A stretch of 64,000 bases of DNA from Thermanaerovibrio velox DSM 12556. Its GTDB lineage: Bacteria; Synergistota; Synergistia; Synergistales; Synergistaceae. The stretch is from assembly GCF_000237825.1 (NCBI RefSeq), contig NZ_CM001377.1, positions 1,178,001 through 1,242,000 of the forward strand, in the 5' to 3' direction. The translations under genes and the position numbers were made by a program. The notes below the pieces were generated by a model. The model was not told where the DNA came from, did no database searches, and saw only the letters and a list, made by a program, of their open reading frames with translations. Positions 25,140 through 35,968 of the stretch are shown here, in pieces. Every line of letters begins with the position of its first letter. Position 1 is the stretch's first letter.

Positions 25140-25478
25140 CTACCCGGGCGGCCAATTAAACCGTCGGCCCGCAAGCACGTGAACGTGCAGGTGGGGAATA
25201 GTCTGACCGGCCTGTTCTCCGCTGTTCACGACCAACCGAAACCCCTCTCGGTTGACCCCCAGCAGCTCCGCCACGCGAACCGCACCCTCCATCACAGCCC
25301 CCCATACCTCGCCACCCGGCCCCTCCGCAGCACCACATACATGCACCTTCGGGACCACCAAGACGTGAAAGGGTGCCACAGGGTTTATGTCATGAAAGGC
25401 CAGTACCGCATCATCCTCATAAACCTTCCTGGCGGGGACCTCTCCAGACACTATCTTACAGAAAAGGCACGATTCCAT
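25140..25478 (-). CDS. HIT family nucleotide-binding protein (HinT-like)
   Basis: About 112 residues from the ATG at 25476-25478 (MESCLFCKIVSGEVPARKVYED), preceded by GGAGGA. Earlier codons in frame look like read-back into the spacer. The C-terminal histidine triad reads IPHLHVHVLAGRRFNWPPG. HinT-like proteins hydrolyse purine nucleoside phosphoramidates such as aminoacyl-AMP. It sits between the second J-protein gene and rpsU. Confidence 0.92.
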   Translation of the reverse strand: MESCLFCKIVSGEVPARKVYEDDAVLAFHDINPVAPFHVLVVPKVHVCGAAEGPGGEVWGAVMEGAVRVAELLGVNREGFRLVVNSGEQAGQTIPHLHVHVLAGRRFNWPPG

Positions 25479-25515
25479 CGCAACAGATTCCTCCGAACAG
25501 CCAGTTCCCATCATT

Positions 25516-26604
25516 CTACCCCATTGACCTGTTTCTAACAATAGCGGAAGCCCAAACCCTGACCGCAGGGGAAGGATGCGATGAGGCCAGCTTCTCTATC
25601 CGAGGCATCATCCAAGGCTGAGGCCCCTCCCTCTTTACAAGCCTCAGAGCCGCTCCAAGAACCCCCTCATCCTCGGACTTTAGAAACCTGGACATGTCGG
25701 ATACGTCCGGCAAACCAACCCCGGACGGCCACATATCAAGAAGCGCCGCCAAAACTCCAAGGTCCCGATTGCCACAAAAGGGCTTTAAAAGCCCCCGGTC
25801 CCGAACCCCTCCGTACTTAAGCCACCTAAGCACCCCAACCGCATCGGGCCTTCCATACACACCTCCCCAACGGCAGACGCTCCTGGCCACCTCCGCCGCA
25901 GAGGGTTTGAATATGCTCAAAACCCTAGATAAAACCTCCCCGTCCGGCATGCCCCTGGAAAGAGCCAAGACCGCCAAACGCTCCCGGAGCCCCAAATCCT
26001 CTAACTTCCTCAGTTCCTCCAAGGCCAACACCACTACCCCTGGATGGCGGCTCAAAAGCCTTGACTCCAACCTGGGAGATATGTCATGCCCCTCCGCGGG
26101 CCTAGCCCTCTTTAAGATCCAATCAAGCCGGTTCTCCGCCAGGTCCAAGGCCTCCCACAGAGCCCTGTCACGCTCAAAGCTCCTCTTCGCTTCCTCCTTG
26201 CCCACGCCTTCAGAACGGCCAAACCGCATGGCCCCCTTAGCTAGGACCGACCCTATGGAGCTGAGCCAGCTCAACCCCTTAGCTCCCCATGAAAAACCTC
26301 CGGACCTACGCCTGCGCCTAGACCGCCTGGTCTGCCAAGTCCCACTCGCGGCATCCCTGGCAGTCCCCTGCGCAGAAGCCGCCTTCGCACCCCCCGTCTG
26401 GCCAAGAGCACCGAATGATCCACTTTGAACCGCCTCTCGGATGGACATGTAGGCCCTGTTTATCTCCGCAAACCGACGAGAGTGCTCGGGACCCGCCACA
26501 TCGGGGTGGTAGGTCCTGGCAAGACGCCGAAACGCCGACTTAACGTCATCCCAACTAGCACCGGGGGAAAGCCCTAACGTCTTGAGATCAACCTCAAGGC
26601 TCAC
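25516..26604 (-). CDS. J-domain protein with helical-repeat C-terminus, partner of the second Hsp70
   Basis: 362 residues. The N-terminal J-domain (about 1-65) has LKTLGLSPGASWDDVKSAFR and the HPD motif in RTYHPDVAG. There is no Gly/Phe region and no zinc-finger region. A basic low-complexity linker (about 80-120, RRSRRRRRSGG) leads to about 240 residues of helix pairs resembling HEAT repeats (SRLLSRHPGVVVLALEELRK, VLGAALRLVKREGP). It is thus a class C J-protein, different from the true DnaJ at 31240. GTG start; it overlaps the upstream Hsp70 gene by 11 nt, so the two are probably a dedicated pair. Confidence 0.8.
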   Translation of the reverse strand: MSLEVDLKTLGLSPGASWDDVKSAFRRLARTYHPDVAGPEHSRRFAEINRAYMSIREAVQSGSFGALGQTGGAKAASAQGTARDAASGTWQTRRSRRRRRSGGFSWGAKGLSWLSSIGSVLAKGAMRFGRSEGVGKEEAKRSFERDRALWEALDLAENRLDWILKRARPAEGHDISPRLESRLLSRHPGVVVLALEELRKLEDLGLRERLAVLALSRGMPDGEVLSRVLSIFKPSAAEVARSVCRWGGVYGRPDAVGVLRWLKYGGVRDRGLLKPFCGNRDLGVLAALLDMWPSGVGLPDVSDMSRFLKSEDEGVLGAALRLVKREGPQPWMMPRIEKLASSHPSPAVRVWASAIVRNRSMG

Positions 26605-28219
26605 CGTTAAGCACCCTCTCCATGTCTAAAATCAGCCGGTCCAACACGTCCAGGGCCTCCATAGCAAGCCCCTCCTGTCCAGTCCCGCTAAGACGCCTCA
26701 CCTTGCCAACCATGCTAAGAAGCCTATCCTGCACCTGCCTCGACGCGGACATGCTGATAACCGCCAGACGAGCCTCCCTCTCGCGAAGCTCCCTCTCCAG
26801 GTCAAATGAGGCAGCCCCACCGGACAGGGCAAGATCTACAACCCTGCTGGCAGACCAGTTAGCGGTCATTACCTTTACTCGAAGAAGCCCTCCGGTGTCC
26901 ACCACCAGGGAAAGCCTTACATCCCCGGTCTCCCCAGAAGGGACCGGCACCCGATATATAACCCTGGACCCAGAAGGCCCCCGCAAAACCCCCTCTCCCT
27001 GAACCAGCGTAACCGCCCCATCCAGGTGATCCAACGAAACCGACGACGAAGCCTCCGCAGGAAGGGGTGAACCCCGATGAACCAGCGTCCGCACGGAACC
27101 GTCCTTCAAAACCACCCCCACCGAAGCACTTAAAACGTCTATGAGGAGCCTTTGCCCCCCCTGCCTTATGAAAAGGCTAGCTCCTAAGGCCACCGCTTCA
27201 TCGGGACAGACCTTCATGTGCTCAATAGGGCCCACCCGCTCGCTAAGGCGCCGTCTAAGAAGGGGTATCCTTCCACTACCCCCCACCACAACCAGCCGAT
27301 CCGGACGATGACGACGAAACAGCCTCTCCGTAAGGCGTACCACTTCGTCCACCACCGGGGCTATTATCCCCTCCAGATCCTCCCTGGTCACCCTAAGGGG
27401 CCCTGTATCATCAAAACCCCACGGAGGAACCCAGTCCACCACCCCCACGTCCGAAAGGGCAATCTTAACCTGCTCTGCCTCCCTAAGAACCATGAGCCAA
27501 CGGGGGTCAACCTCGTCAAGAGGCACGCTCCCAAGGTGACGCCAAAGCCACACCGCAAGACGCCGGTCCAAATCATACCCACCTAGGTCCTTGCGCCCTA
27601 AACTGTCCAACACCTGGAACACCCCGTCCTCACCCTCGAGGACCGATATGTCCAGGGTACCTCCACCAAAGTCAAGGATGAGGAACCTGCCGTCCGAAGC
27701 CACCGAAAGAGCGGCGGCGGTGGGCTCGTTTAAAACCCTAACAAACTCGAAGCCCGCCCCCTTCGCGGAACGATATAATGCCCCCCTCTCGGGGAAACCG
27801 AAGTGGGCGGGAACAGTTATCACCGCAGAGGTCACAAAACTCCCAAGCGACGCCTCCGCATCCTCCCTCAGAAGGCAGAGAAGATGCGATAAAAGGTCCT
27901 CCGCCCCATAGGCCCTGCCCCCGCAACGGGCAACCCAGTCCGTACCAAGCTTTCTCTTTATATCCCACCACATGTCACCGGAGGATATGGCGGAGCCCCT
28001 TAAGGCATCATCCCCACAAAGGAAACGCCCATCCCTGTATGCCACGTAAGAGGGAGTCCTGGTCTTGCCCCAACGATTGGGCAATACCCTGGGCACCCCC
28101 CCGGGGGGACAGTATGAAACCAGGGAATAGCGAGTTCCCAGGTCTATTCCTATTACGGGCTCCTTCAACAGAACACCCCCGCGAACTACATATGCGAACC
28201 CAACGGGACCGTGATACAT
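26594..28219 (-). CDS. Second Hsp70-family ATPase, short DnaK-like
   Basis: About 541 residues. Hsp70 motifs are intact: [15 protein letters not shown] (phosphate 1), VITVPAHFGFPERGAL, RVLNEPTAAALSV, LILDFGGGTLDISVLEG (phosphate 2) and VVVGGSGRIPLLRRRL. A beta substrate domain (about 390-480) and a short helical end follow, giving about 70 residues less than DnaK. The ATG at 28217-28219 follows GGTGAT; a TTG 17 codons later is an alternative. Co-translation with a J-protein lacking DnaJ features suggests a specialised chaperone, somewhat like HscC or YegD types. The client is unknown. Confidence 0.85.
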   Translation of the reverse strand: MYHGPVGFAYVVRGGVLLKEPVIGIDLGTRYSLVSYCPPGGVPRVLPNRWGKTRTPSYVAYRDGRFLCGDDALRGSAISSGDMWWDIKRKLGTDWVARCGGRAYGAEDLLSHLLCLLREDAEASLGSFVTSAVITVPAHFGFPERGALYRSAKGAGFEFVRVLNEPTAAALSVASDGRFLILDFGGGTLDISVLEGEDGVFQVLDSLGRKDLGGYDLDRRLAVWLWRHLGSVPLDEVDPRWLMVLREAEQVKIALSDVGVVDWVPPWGFDDTGPLRVTREDLEGIIAPVVDEVVRLTERLFRRHRPDRLVVVGGSGRIPLLRRRLSERVGPIEHMKVCPDEAVALGASLFIRQGGQRLLIDVLSASVGVVLKDGSVRTLVHRGSPLPAEASSSVSLDHLDGAVTLVQGEGVLRGPSGSRVIYRVPVPSGETGDVRLSLVVDTGGLLRVKVMTANWSASRVVDLALSGGAASFDLERELREREARLAVISMSASRQVQDRLLSMVGKVRRLSGTGQEGLAMEALDVLDRLILDMERVLNGEP

Positions 28220-28272: not shown

Positions 28273-29602
28273 TTACAAAGGATACAACAAATCATCGGAC
28301 GGGACAAAAGCCCCCTCCCCCACCACAAGGGTCCCTCCCATCGATGCGGTGGGAGTCAGCTCTACCACCACCCCCAAAGGCCCATGATAGGGGAAACGAA
28401 CCCTTACAAACCCCTCGGTAAGACCGTCCGCCAGGCCTTCCGACACCCTCTCCACCAACACCGTAACCCTACGGCCAACAAACCTGGAAGCGAAGCTCTC
28501 CAACCGGGAAGCCCCCAATTCCAAGAGCCTATTAAGCCTCGCCCGAACCACATCCGGCGCCGGCCTCTCCCAATTAAAAGCCGGAGTGCCCGGCCTTGGG
28601 GAGTACGAAAAAGGATGTATACGCCCCACCGAGGCCCGATCAAGGACCGTCAGGGTTTTCTCAAAGGCCTCATCGTCCTCCCCTGGGAACCCAACCATCA
28701 CATCGGAACTCAGATGAAGATCATCGCCCAGGATGCTCCTAGCCCGGTCAGCCAGGGCCACATAATCATCCCCCCGGTAGCCCCTCCCCATCCGCCTAAG
28801 GACGGAGTCATCCCCACTTTGGAGGGGGATGTGCAGGTGCCTCATAAATGCCCCACAGTCCCCTAGGACACGGAGCAACCTCTCCCCAACAGAAAAAGGC
28901 TCGATGGAACCAAAGCGAAGCCTCTTGAGCCCCGCCACCTTCCCCAATGCTTCCACCAGATCCGCCAGGTCAAGGCCCTCCCAGTTGTAATCCCCCAGAT
29001 GAACCCCGGTGAGCACGACCTCTAAAGCCCCGGAATCCAAAACCCTACGCGCCTCATCCAAGACATCCCCAAAGGGTCTCGATATCGAAGGACCTCTGAG
29101 CTTGGGGATTATGCAGTACGTACAACCCCTGGAACACCCGTCTTGGACCTTAATGAACGCCCTGGTGTGCCTGGTGGGTCTTAAAAGCGAAAGGGAATCC
29201 CAGGAGCTTCCTCTCTCCCTGTAGACGGGCTCCAACCTCTCCCCTCGGACGTGACGTTCCACCAGCTGGGGCACCAGATGCTTCATACCGTTAACCAGAC
29301 CCACGTCCACTCCCATGCTCGAGAGGTCCTCATCGGACACCCGGTCAACCCAACATCCGCAAACCACCAAAAGGGCATCGGGGTTCCTGCGCCTCAGACG
29401 CCTTACCTCCTGCCGGGCCTTCCTCTCCGCCTCGGCGGTCACCGCACAGCTGACCAACACCATAACCCCCGCATCCTCTACCCTCTGGGCCTCATCGGGC
29501 CCCCAAGGAGAGCAGCTCGGAAGCTATGGCATCCCCTTCATACTGATTTACCCTGCACCCGTGGGACACCACGAAAAAACCAACCCCCGCTAGACCGCTC
29601 AC
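28273..29602 (-). pseudogene. mtaB: tRNA (t6A37) methylthiotransferase MtaB, interrupted by a +1 frameshift
   Basis: The C-terminal frame (from before 29463 to 28273) has SCAVTAEAERKARQEV, the radical-SAM site GCSRGCTYCIIPKLRG, LRFGSIEPFSV, HLHIPLQSGDDSVLRRMGR and a TRAM end. The first 35 residues lie in another frame from the GTG at 29602: GFFVVSHGCRVNQYEGDAI with the first cluster Cys, stopping at TGA just after a GGGGG run (29500-29504). Removing one G joins the frames into exactly 442 residues, normal for MtaB, which makes ms2t6A37 in tRNA. The GTG overlaps the rsmE stop and follows GGAGGTG, so the start is sound. Error, mutation or recoding are possible. Confidence 0.85.
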
Positions 29603-31239: not shown

Positions 31240-32388
31240 TTAACCTCCGAAAAAGCCCTTCAGCTTGTCTAGTATACCCTCTTCCTGTCGGACTTTTACG
31301 TTCATCTCCTGGGCTAAGGCCTGAAGAAGCGCCCTTTGCCTCTCCGTCAGGTTCTTGGGAACCACGACCCTCACCTGAACCAGAAGATCCCCCCTGCCGC
31401 CGCCCATCCTGGGCATGCCCTTGCCTCTGATCTTCAGCACCGATCCCGGCTGAGTCCCAGGCGGTATCTCTATCCGCTCCACCCCGTCAAAGGTCTCCAG
31501 GGAGATCTCGCTGCCAAGGGCAGCCTGGGGGAATGCGACGTCCACCTTAACCCTGAGATCCGCCCCATGTCTTTCAAAGACCTTATGGGGCATGACCTCC
31601 ACTATGAGGAAGAGATCTCCGGGAGGCCCACCGTTGATCCCCGCCTCGCCCTCGCCGGGAATCCTAAGCCTGGTTCCGGTCTCTACCCCCTTGGGGATCT
31701 TAATCTCAACCCGGTGCGGTACCCTCACCCGGCCCTGCCCCTTGCACTCCTTGCAGGGGCTGTTTATCACCCTACCCTTACCGGAGCACCTGGGACAGGT
31801 GTTGACCTGCACGAACTGGCCAAAAGGGGTCCTCATGGACTGCTCCACCTGACCGCGGCCACCACAGCTAGGACAGGTCTCGGGCTTAGTCCCGGGTTCC
31901 GCCCCAGACCCCCCACACCTCATGCAGGTCTCCCATCGAGGTATGGTGAGCTCCTTCGATGAACCCCTGAAGGCCTCCTCCAAGGTAACCTGCAAAACCG
32001 TCTCCACGTCGGCTCCCCTTCGGGGGCCGGAGGGGCCCCTTCCGGGGCGCCCCCCCACACCGCCGAAGAAGTTCTCGAAAAGATCGCCGAAGAGATCCCC
32101 AAACGGATCACCACCAAACCCGCCGAACCCCTCAAATGGATTACCCCCGGGAGGAACGTCTCCCACATACCCAAACTGGTCGTACTGGGCACGTTTGGCA
32201 GGATCGCTCAAGACCTCGTAAGCCTCGTTGATCTCCTTAAATTTGGCCTCCGCGTCCTTATCGTTCGGGTTCGCGTCCGGATGATACTTACGAGCAAGCT
32301 TGCGGTAGGCCTTCTTTATCTCCTCCGACGTGGCCTCCCGGGATACTCCCAATATGTCATAATAATCCTTCTTTCCCGGAGCAGCCAC
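31240..32388 (-). CDS. dnaJ: Chaperone protein DnaJ
   Basis: 382 residues, class A: J-domain ([23 protein letters not shown] in [10 protein letters not shown]), a Gly/Phe region ([13 protein letters not shown]), four zinc motifs of the CxxCxGxG type ([32 protein letters not shown]), and two beta client domains. It delivers substrates to DnaK. GTG start after GGAGGG. It is last of the classical hrcA-grpE-dnaK-dnaJ group. Confidence 0.97.
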
Positions 32389-32403: not shown

Positions 32404-34221
32404 TTAAGCCCTTCCGGCGTCCTTGAAGTCCGCGTCCACGGAACCGGTATCATGCCCCGTTCCGGAGGCGTCCGATGGGCTCTCAGCACCGCCGGAGGCA
32501 GAGTATATCTTATGAGATATGCCGTGAAGCGCCTGGGTGAGCTCCTCAATGCCCCGCCTTATGGCAGCCGCATCGTCCTTGGCGGTGAGCTCCTTAAGAG
32601 CCTTCACCTTATCCTCCACCGGAGCCTTCTCATCGGAGGTAAGCTTGTCCCCAAGATCCCTCAGGGTCTTCTCGGTGTTGTACACCAAGCTCTCCGCCTC
32701 GTTCCTGGCCTCCGCAAGCTCCTTCTTGCGGCGGTCCTCCTCCTCATGCTGCTCCGCCTCCCTGCGGAGACGCTCTATCTCCGCCTCGGAGAGCCTTGAG
32801 GACTGTATCGTTATGTGCTGGGCCTTGCCGGTTCCCTTGTCCTTGGCGGTGACGTTAACTATACCATTGGCATCCACCTCAAAGGTGACCTCTATCTGGG
32901 GCACCCCCCTGGGTGCGGGAGGAATCCCATCGAGGATGAAGCGCCCAAGCTCCACGTTGTCGTTAGCCATGGGACGCTCCCCCTGGAGCACCCGTATCTC
33001 CACCTGGGGCTGGTTGTCCGCCGCGGTGGTAAAAACCTGGCTCTTGGAGCAGGGAATCGCAGTGTTCCTCTCTATTATCTTGGTGAACACCCCTCCCAAG
33101 GTCTCAAGACCAAGGGACAAGGGGGTCACGTCAACCAACACTATCCCGCTCTTCTCCCCACTGAGCACCGCACCCTGTATGGCAGCCCCCACCGCCACAC
33201 ACTCGTCCGGGTTGATGCCCTTGGTGGGCTCCTTGCCCAACAGCTCCTTAACCTTACGCTGCACCATTGGCATCCTGGTAGAACCACCGACCAGAAGGAC
33301 CTTGTCTATCTGAGAGGCACTGAGTCCCGCATCCTCTAGCGCCCTCTTGGTGGGGGCCACGGTCCTCTCAAGAAGGTCCGCGGTCATGTCCTCGAACTTG
33401 GCCCGGGTCAAGGTGAGCTCCAGGTGCTTGGGACCGTTCTGATCCGCAGTTATAAAGGGCAGGGATATGGTGGTCTCCATCATGGAGGAAAGCTCTATCT
33501 TCGCCTTCTCCGCCGCCTCCCGGAGACGCTGGAACGCCATCTTGTCGTTCCTCAGGTCTATGCCCTCGGACTTCCTGAACTCGTCTATCATCCAGTCCAC
33601 TATGCGCATATCCCAGTCGTCACCGCCCAGGTGGTTGTCCCCAGAGGTGGCAAGCACCTCGAAGACCCCATCTCCAACGTCCAGGATGGACACGTCAAAG
33701 GTCCCACCGCCCAGGTCGAACACCAGTATCTTGTGGTCCCCCTCCTTGTCCACCCCGTAGGCAAGGCAAGCAGCGGTGGGCTCGTTTATGACCCGCAAGA
33801 CCTCAAGCCCCGCTATGGTACCCGCATCCTTAGTGGCCTGCCGCTGAGCATCGGTGAAGTAAGCAGGACACGTTATGACCGCCTGAGTAACCGGCTCCCC
33901 AAGGTAGTCCTCCGCGTCCTTCTTGAGCTTCTGGAGTATCATGGCAGATATCTCCTGGGGAGTGTAGGCCTTGCCGTCTATGTTGACCTTGTAATCGGAC
34001 CCCATCTTACGCTTTATGGAGATAATGGTCCTGTCGGCGTTGACTATGGCCTGCCTCTTGGCCAACTGTCCCACAAGCCTCTCCCCGTCCTTGGTGAAGG
34101 CCACCACCGACGGAGTGGTCCTGCTGCCCTCCGCGTTAGGTATTACCGTTATGTTGTCCCCTTCCTTGACCGCCACACAGCTGTTGGTGGTCCCAAGGTC
34201 TATTCCTATCACCTTTCCCAT
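32404..34221 (-). CDS. dnaK: Chaperone protein DnaK
   Basis: About 605 residues from the ATG at 34219-34221 ([17 protein letters not shown]). A spurious upstream extension of 7 codons is rejected because GAGGGTG lies correctly for this ATG. Hsp70 elements: [32 protein letters not shown], the linker [15 protein letters not shown], the beta substrate domain and a helical lid ending in an acidic tail. It works with DnaJ and GrpE. Confidence 0.98.
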
Positions 34222-34281
34222 GAAAAACACCCTCTTTCGCAAGATTTTTCTACTTCTCTATGCTGACTTTATACCTCTGCC

Positions 34282-34905
34282 TCAGCCCTTGAACTTTGCA
34301 ACCTTAACAAGGGCGGGCCTTATCAACTTTCCCCCTAACAGATACCCCCTTTGGAGCTCCGCCACCACCTTGCCGTCCATCTCCGGATCCCCGGTCTCCT
34401 CAAAGTCCACCGCCTCGTGGACCGAAGGATCGAAAGCCCCCTCCGAAGCAACCCGCTCCAGGCCAAGGCTCTCCAGGGCGGAGAGGAACTGGCGGGCCAC
34501 CATCTGAACCCCCTTTATCACCGGGTCATCCACCCTGTCGGTGCAGGACAAAAGGGTCCTCTCCAGGTTGTCCAACACCGGGATCAAAAGGCCCACCGCG
34601 GACTCCGCAGATCTCTTCCTCTCCACCTCCCGATCCCTTTCAACCCGCCTTACATAGTTTGTGAAGTCCGCTTTGTTGCGCAAAGCCTCCTTCATGAGGT
34701 CATCGTAGCTGTCCTTTAACTTGGACAGCTCCTCCTCCATCCTCTTTATATCCCGATCCTTACCCCGAAGCATCTCCACCAGCTCCACCTTGGACATCTC
34801 CGCCACCATAAGATCCTCCTGGCGGGACACCTCCGCAGAAGGGGAAGCCCCCTCCTGGGAAGCAGGACCATCAAAAGCTGCATCAATCAAGCGATTCTCT
34901 TCCAT
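34282..34905 (-). CDS. grpE: Nucleotide exchange factor GrpE
   Basis: 207 residues: an acidic disordered N-terminus, a long coiled coil (about 40-110, DRDIKRMEEELSKLKDSYDD), and the compact beta domain with LIPVLDNLERTL, ALESLGLERV and a final GYLLGGKLIRPALVKV. It releases ADP from DnaK. The ATG follows GGAGGAG, 6 nt after hrcA. Confidence 0.96.
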   Translation of the reverse strand: MEENRLIDAAFDGPASQEGASPSAEVSRQEDLMVAEMSKVELVEMLRGKDRDIKRMEEELSKLKDSYDDLMKEALRNKADFTNYVRRVERDREVERKRSAESAVGLLIPVLDNLERTLLSCTDRVDDPVIKGVQMVARQFLSALESLGLERVASEGAFDPSVHEAVDFEETGDPEMDGKVVAELQRGYLLGGKLIRPALVKVAKFKG

Positions 34906-34911
34906 GGCACG

Positions 34912-35922
34912 TTACTCCTCCAAACCCTCGATGGCAGATGCCACGTCCTCAAGCACCGATATTACCCTCTCATAGTCCATCCTCTTGGGGCCTAATATGC
35001 CCACTATCGCCTTAGCCCCTCCCTTGGGGCTGGAGGCCAGCACCAAAGAACAGTCCTCCAGCTCAGGGCACTGAGACTCCTCGCCTATGACAACGCTCAC
35101 CCCGTTGCCCACCGAGTGCCTAGCCACCAGCTCCGCCAACTCCTCCTCCTGCTCCAGCAGGGAGAAGAACGCCTTGAGGCGGCTTAGATCCTGAAAATCC
35201 GGAAGGCTCAACATCTGACTCACCGGACCGGTAAAGACCCGGACCTGCCTGGACTCCACCATCTCCCCCAGGGTGCTAAGGGCTACTCGACAGGCCTCAG
35301 AGAACTCCGAAAGCTGATGCAAAAGGTACCCCTCCAGAGAAGCCCTGACCTCCGACCAGGGCCTCCCGGACACCGCCATGTTCATCTTCCTTGAGAACTC
35401 GTCAAGGAGATCGCTGGACAGGTCCCAAGGCATGGGGATAACCTTGTGATGCACAAGCCCACCCTCCAGCACGACAACCAAAAGCACGTTCCTACTATCA
35501 ACCTTGAAGAAGCTTACGTTCTTTATGGTTACGTCGTTCAGGGGGGCTATGGCACCTATCCCCACGTAGTGGGTAAGCCTGCCCAAAAGGTCCGTGGCCT
35601 CGTTGAGAAAGCCCTCAAGGTCTTGCCTCTTGCGCTTGAGCGCCTCCGCCAAAGGCAGCCCAACGCCCTTTGAGCGGGATCGCTGGAGCACCGAGTCCAC
35701 GTAGAGCCTGTAAGCCCTCGTGGTAGGGACCCTACCAGCGGAGGTGTAAGGTTGAGAGAGAAAACCCATCCCCTCCAGGTCCGACATCTCGTTCCTTATG
35801 GTGGCGGGACTGTGAGAGCAGAGGTACCGCTTGGACACGGTCCTGGAACCCACGCTCTCCCCGCTCCTTATGTACTCGTATACCACCGATAACACTATCT
35901 CCAACTGACGCTCCGTAAGCAT
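34912..35922 (-). CDS. hrcA: Heat-inducible transcription repressor HrcA
   Basis: About 336 residues from the ATG at 35920-35922 (MLTERQLEIVLSVVYEYI), 6 nt after a strong GGAGGTG. It has a winged-helix N-terminus (VSKRYLCSHSPATIRNEMSDLEGMG), an inserted dimerisation domain and the GAF-like C-domain (SVVIGEESQ, AIVGILGPKRMDYERVISVL). HrcA binds the CIRCE operator found just upstream and controls its own operon with the help of GroEL. Confidence 0.97.
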   Translation of the reverse strand: MLTERQLEIVLSVVYEYIRSGESVGSRTVSKRYLCSHSPATIRNEMSDLEGMGFLSQPYTSAGRVPTTRAYRLYVDSVLQRSRSKGVGLPLAEALKRKRQDLEGFLNEATDLLGRLTHYVGIGAIAPLNDVTIKNVSFFKVDSRNVLLVVVLEGGLVHHKVIPMPWDLSSDLLDEFSRKMNMAVSGRPWSEVRASLEGYLLHQLSEFSEACRVALSTLGEMVESRQVRVFTGPVSQMLSLPDFQDLSRLKAFFSLLEQEEELAELVARHSVGNGVSVVIGEESQCPELEDCSLVLASSPKGGAKAIVGILGPKRMDYERVISVLEDVASAIEGLEE

Positions 35923-35941
35923 GGGGCACACCTCCATGGCC

Positions 35942-35968
35942 TTGGCACTCTATAAGCAAGACTGCTAA
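35942..35968. promoter_or_regulatory. CIRCE operator (HrcA binding site)
   Basis: TTGGCACTC-N9-GACTGCTAA, one mismatch in each arm from the consensus TTAGCACTC-N9-GAGTGCTAA. It lies 20 nt upstream of hrcA and just downstream of the promoter, placed to block transcription. Confidence 0.93.

Follow-up and report, generated by a model that had tools for sequence, protein, structure and literature searches.

The second Hsp70 gene of Thermanaerovibrio velox DSM 12556 and the genes that surround it are listed in Table 1, with positions counted from the first letter of the window, i.e., the whole stretch of 64,000 nucleotides that was analysed (contig NZ_CM001377.1, positions 1,178,001 to 1,242,000). 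The genome, 1.88 Mb in one contig, codes for only two Hsp70s, DnaK and the protein termed here H70b, and for exactly two J-domain proteins, DnaJ and J2. Of its six Pfam HSP70 matches, two are the halves of H70b, one is DnaK, and the other three each cover only a short part of a protein of 295-388 aa. As an earlier note on this DNA had it, H70b and J2, both intact genes, are encoded downstream of hrcA-grpE-dnaK-dnaJ, in the same direction, and overlap by 11 nt, H70b ending at 26594 and J2 beginning at 26604. The genes prmA, rsmE and mtaB separate dnaJ from the pair, which is followed by a HIT-family gene.

Table 1. Features of the H70b-J2 locus and of the neighbouring chaperone genes (positions in the window)
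Feature	Position	Strand	Basis
H70b, second Hsp70, 524 aa	26594..28168	-	Pfam HSP70, E 7e-59; start from congeneric homologues
H70b nucleotide-binding domain (NBD), residues 1-340	27149..28168	-	Alignment with E. coli DnaK, 38 homologues, model
H70b interdomain linker LLIDVL, including the DnaK D393 equivalent	27131..27148	-	Alignments
H70b SBDbeta, residues 350-445, eight strands	26834..27121	-	Model and alignment
H70b short three-helix lid, residues 457-520, without disordered C-terminal tail	26609..26800	-	Alignment and model
Overlap of H70b and J2, 11 nt	26594..26604	-	ORF coordinates; also in two congeners
J2, class C J-protein, 362 aa, GTG start	25516..26604	-	Pfam DnaJ, E 2e-10; 42-member alignment
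J2 J-domain, residues 3-61	26422..26598	-	Pfam, model
HPD motif of J2, residues 33-35	26500..26508	-	Sequence and alignment
J2 linker, residues 62-131, basic and variable, largely disordered in the model	26212..26421	-	
J2 HEAT-like alpha-solenoid tail, residues 132-359, with conserved VRxW motif at its end	25528..26211	-	Alignment, model, outgroup Pfam
HIT-family protein ORF, usual downstream neighbour of the pair	25140..25541	-	
mtaB ORF, tRNA methylthiotransferase family, most constant upstream neighbour of the pair	28273..29463	-	
dnaJ, general system	31240-32388	-	
dnaK, general system	32404-34242	-	
grpE	34282-34905	-	
hrcA	34912-35937	-	
CIRCE-like palindrome, two mismatches, directly upstream of hrcA	35942..35968	.	

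The CIRCE-like site before hrcA makes heat-shock control of the T. velox cluster plausible, and no strong internal promoter stands out. The placement of the pair in a heat-shock operon, as the earlier note had proposed, thus holds for this genome without being a conserved trait: many genomes have the block prmA-mtaB-H70b-J2 but no dnaK or dnaJ in the fetched flank (e.g., L075, L078, L082, L083, L086 and L087), and linkage to the dnaKJ cluster was therefore rejected as a defining trait. The stable neighbours of the pair are mtaB and, more loosely, the HIT gene. In T. velox the N-terminal part of mtaB (HGCRVNQYEGDAIA..., window 29464-29600) lies in a different reading frame from the remainder, while the gene is intact in congeners; the break is a frameshift of this strain or of the assembly.

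H70b probably starts at the TTG codon at 28168, where its homologues of the same genus begin, which gives a protein of 524 aa instead of the 541 residues assigned previously. The longer start (28219/28222; the ATG at 28219 would yield 541 aa) appears less likely, and its additional N-terminal codons are not conserved. The protein displays the features of the Hsp70 superfamily, namely an actin-like NBD with phosphate, adenosine and catalytic motifs, a hydrophobic linker with the D393 equivalent (DnaK numbering), SBDbeta and a lid; in the AlphaFold2 model (pLDDT 88) the NBD is followed by an SBDbeta of eight strands and a lid of three helices. The description of a short Hsp70 with intact ATPase motifs was borne out by Pfam, by alignment with E. 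coli DnaK, in which the equivalents of K70, E171, D194, T199 and D201 are retained, and by the 38 homologues. Among the latter, K70, E171, D194, D201 and D393 are present in 37 and T199 in 34, the main outlier being a decayed protein of family f7. H70b has Q at the position of E217, a J-contact residue of DnaK, which is a point against the proposed dedicated pair. The equivalents of DnaK positions 404/429 (the SBDbeta arch) and 433 are not retained. In the same 32 genomes, sequence identity of H70b is 51% for the NBD vs 39% for SBDbeta, compared to 82% and 83% in DnaK; in H70b it is thus the peptide clamp that is loosely constrained, although it is still folded.

In alignments with E. coli DnaK, HscA and HscC, the GrpE loop of H70b is 2-6 residues shorter than that of DnaK, as it is likewise shortened in HscA and HscC. 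Both cleft salt bridges, K55-E267 and R56-E264, are absent, the equivalents of K55 and E264 having been lost. In HscA, such losses accompany an ADP release that is 700-fold faster, and similar behaviour is expected of HscC (PMC8215388). By analogy, nucleotide exchange without GrpE is expected for H70b, which would make it independent of this factor.

Like HscC with DjlC and DjlB in E. coli, H70b is a short Hsp70 (524 aa, compared to 556 in HscC) that adjoins a class C J-protein without the DnaJ client domains, and like HscC it lacks the GrpE signature and the cleft salt bridges and shows NBD deletions at the same places (PMC8215388). H70b is slightly shorter than the 550-580 aa range of HscC proteins (PMC8215388). 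Membership in HscC was nevertheless rejected: H70b lacks the 4-8 extra residues in loop L1,2 of SBDbeta (found in EcHscC only) and shares only 29% identity with HscC. In the tree, a 100/100 branch appears to set H70b apart from EcHscC, which falls with DnaK and HscA, although the branches are long. Neither J2 nor its tail is related in sequence to DjlB or DjlC. HscA/HscB is likewise a dedicated Hsp70/J pair in one operon in which the GrpE loop and salt bridges have been lost; here membership was rejected on a score of 194 bits vs a cut-off of 708 and on the lack of the HscB C-terminal domain in J2 (Pfam), which carries a HEAT tail and no IscU-binding domain, and no isc genes occur at the locus. 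In sequence H70b is closest to DnaK, which together with its paralogues (e.g., Myxococcus DnaK2, PMC11019930) is another of the nearest known counterparts, but H70b scores far below the DnaK cut-offs of TIGR02350 and NF001413 (198/822 bits and 196/648 bits). Unlike DnaK, with which it shares 31-32% identity, it has a short lid, no C-terminal disordered tail, and a J-protein of its own. The best reading is that the pair works like HscC/DjlC yet belongs to neither HscC, HscA nor DnaK.

The description of J2 as a J-protein with an HPD motif and without the DnaJ zinc and client domains proved correct. The Pfam DnaJ match covers residues 8-53, the HPD motif is invariant across the 42 relatives aligned, and Pfam finds neither DnaJ_C nor a zinc domain, which places J2 in class C. 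The basic linker noted earlier is present in T. velox, but it is disordered and not conserved among the relatives. AlphaFold2 models the tail as an alpha-solenoid, with pLDDT above 90 for most of it. The resemblance of the tail to ARM, HEAT and alphaRep folds, with Z of about 13, is no closer than any helical repeat would give and shows the fold class alone, and Foldseek returned no significant single relative. Pfam HEAT matches are weak in Synergistales J2 proteins; in the orthologues of the outgroup family f11, HEAT_2 exceeds its cut-off (E 1e-24 to 1e-26). Together with the solenoid model, these matches uphold the earlier description of a HEAT-like helical tail, a solenoid of the client-binding type, and assignment of the tail to the HEAT-repeat type is supported.

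The distribution of the pair was assessed in 151 Synergistota genomes, in which the profiles give a clear-cut separation. Of these genomes, 58 have a full-length H70b and 95 a tailed J2, 37 of the latter belonging to genus g17. Among the 113 genomes outside g17, both genes are found in 52, H70b alone in six, J2 alone in six and neither in 49 (phi 0.79). Among the six H70b-only cases, the contig ends at the site in G112 and G140, J2 is present but lacks its tail in G042 and G086, and G027 and perhaps G124 are genuine; of the six with J2 only, three g41 genomes have a mini-Hsp70 (see below), G041 is at a contig edge, and two incomplete g47 genomes have no H70b that we could find. In g47, J2 follows a gene for a TtcA-like PP-loop tRNA-thiolation protein and precedes the HIT gene (L114:6034-7832, L117:5390-7230). 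Where H70b and J2 are paired on the same strand (54 cases), the genes overlap in 33 pairs, are at most 60 nt apart in 14 more and at most 135 nt apart in the other 7; the 11-nt overlap is shared by the two congeners, and many other genomes have an overlap of 4 nt (ATGA). In genomes that lack the pair, the site reads mtaB-HIT or mtaB-polyamine synthase-HIT, the intervening gene coding, as judged by eye, for a BpsA-like branched-chain polyamine synthase (L099:8353-9474, L108:9163-10305, L112:8945-10042).

On the DnaK tree, J2 mirrors 5-6 of the 7 independent gains and losses of H70b, with none opposed (p about 0.03). With DnaK, DnaJ, MtaB, PrmA and HrcA as controls, the distances of H70b remain correlated with those of J2 (r 0.57, p 0.001), although with DnaK as the only control H70b distances correlate equally with PrmA and with J2 (0.69 each). 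Since the two genes lie side by side through much of the phylum, the pair is probably a specialised chaperone, and phylum-wide co-occurrence, adjacency and repeated joint loss support the earlier suggestion of an Hsp70 with its own J-protein. That note had also named separate occurrence of the two genes as evidence against this suggestion, and such occurrence is found in part, with J2 lacking an active H70b in g17 and g41 and any H70b in the incomplete genomes of g47, and with H70b lacking J2 in one or possibly two genomes. The pairing, though strong, is thus not obligatory, and DnaK may be served by J2 as well.

Carried further, this last possibility would make J2 mainly a HEAT-repeat client adaptor for DnaK, with H70b as an accessory or competitor. 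An HPD-intact J2 accompanied by a mini-Hsp70 alone (g17, g41) or by DnaK as the only Hsp70 found (g47) would fit such a role, as would the J-domain of J2, whose closest counterpart in the set compared is DnaJ of the same genome. We consider it unlikely, however, given that J2 is also absent from many complete genomes that have DnaK but no H70b, and that it tightly overlaps H70b and is lost jointly with it.

The constancy of mtaB as a neighbour, even beside the mini-Hsp70s from which J2 has departed, and the position of the g47 J2 after a TtcA-like gene raise the further idea that the pair serves iron-sulphur or tRNA-modifying enzymes, analogous to HscA/HscB. This appears very doubtful: J2 has no C-terminal domain of the HscB type, mtaB is present and unremarkable in genomes without the pair, and the linkage may simply reflect inertia of the operon. 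As a pointer to a client, the position beside mtaB offers a lead but no evidence.

The origin of the pair can be approached through family f11, in which J2 aligns over its full length, VRxW motif included, and is encoded between the second Hsp70 and the HIT gene. The second Hsp70 of f11 is still DnaK-like. A J2 with clear HEAT_2 repeats beside a second Hsp70 in the outgroup indicates that the pair is old. In the first tree the f11 protein grouped with DnaK, whereas after removal of long branches and some rows it grouped with H70b at 98/96, and its placement therefore rests on taxon choice. With moderate confidence, these comparisons suggest that the pairing of a DnaK-type duplicate with a HEAT J-protein predates the main order.

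At the other end of the series, genera g17 (39 of 43 genomes) and g41 (three genomes) encode, directly after mtaB and tightly coupled to it, a mini-Hsp70 of 320-390 aa (L111:1127-2095, L219-L230, L241-L243). These proteins derive from H70b. They lack NBD subdomain IB (with K70), the linker, SBDbeta and D201, and their phosphate-2 motif is altered, while the lid helices are kept; the frame is open and conserved within the genus. E. coli YegD and human HSPA13 are Hsp70 relatives without an SBD. The mini-Hsp70s resemble them in lacking SBDbeta and differ in having also lost subdomain IB and the linker and in keeping the lid helices. J2 is encoded elsewhere in these genomes, with the HPD motif and the tail intact. 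In family f7 (G042, G086; L097:8741-10715, L098:2664-4638) the phosphate-2 motif of H70b has been lost and the adjacent J2, reduced to some 140 aa, has lost most of its tail; the two genes appear to have decayed together. The series of degeneration supports the tail as the more durable functional part and shows that J2 can outlive an active H70b, probably with DnaK as its partner. It is conceivable, though rather doubtful, that client binding has shifted altogether from the Hsp70 to the J-protein, in which case the solenoid would hold the client and H70b would act mainly as an ATP-driven actuator with a degenerating clamp, the Hsp70 having been reduced in two genera to an NBD core and lid helices while the J-protein persists.

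Decay in f7, many lineage losses and an evolution much faster than that of DnaK and DnaJ might also be read as signs that H70b and J2 are a second Hsp70/J system of the usual kind, redundant in part, with relaxed constraint and no special client. This seems quite improbable, since the genes are under purifying selection (dN/dS 0.03-0.22; against a congener, 0.12 for H70b and 0.22 for J2, with 0.07 for DnaK) and the non-DnaJ tail of J2 is conserved across the order together with its invariant C-terminal VRxW motif.

We favour, as somewhat the likelier account but far from a certain one, a dedicated, GrpE-independent Hsp70/J machine whose HEAT tail selects a limited set of clients. Physical pairing of the two proteins, stimulation of the ATPase by J2 and choice of the client by the tail are here postulated by analogy with known systems. 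The origin of the pair would lie early in the history of Synergistota, in a DnaK-type Hsp70 encoded next to a HEAT-repeat J-protein. In the proposed cycle, the solenoid of J2 would bind one of a limited set of client proteins and recruit H70b, the HPD-bearing J-domain would dock at the NBD and linker and trigger ATP hydrolysis, and H70b might then clamp the client or pull on it locally. ADP would leave rapidly without GrpE, owing to the shortened loop and the missing salt bridges.

Dedicated Hsp70/J pairs are few (HscA/HscB, HscC/DjlC). A single phylum here presents a series from an outgroup DnaK-like Hsp70 with a HEAT J-protein, through a divergent form of the main order that looks independent of GrpE, to the mini-Hsp70s of two genera, which have no SBD; the series bears on how a generalist DnaK becomes a specialist, and it makes directly testable which of the two partners, J-protein or Hsp70, confers client specificity.

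No description of the pair was found in the literature searched, which excluded the main review of bacterial J-protein domains. Nor was such a pair found beyond the phylum: a scan of contigs gave J-domain matches, nearly all without the tail, and the J2 profile gave J-domain matches or nothing in 20 genomes of other groups and in samples of 198, 299 and 251 from three other groups; these searches used strict thresholds and no positive control, so that distant pairs may have been missed. Within Synergistota, family f5 has another second pair (L213:2794-5712), in which a DnaK paralogue of 632 aa is encoded beside a class B-like J-protein of 327 aa.
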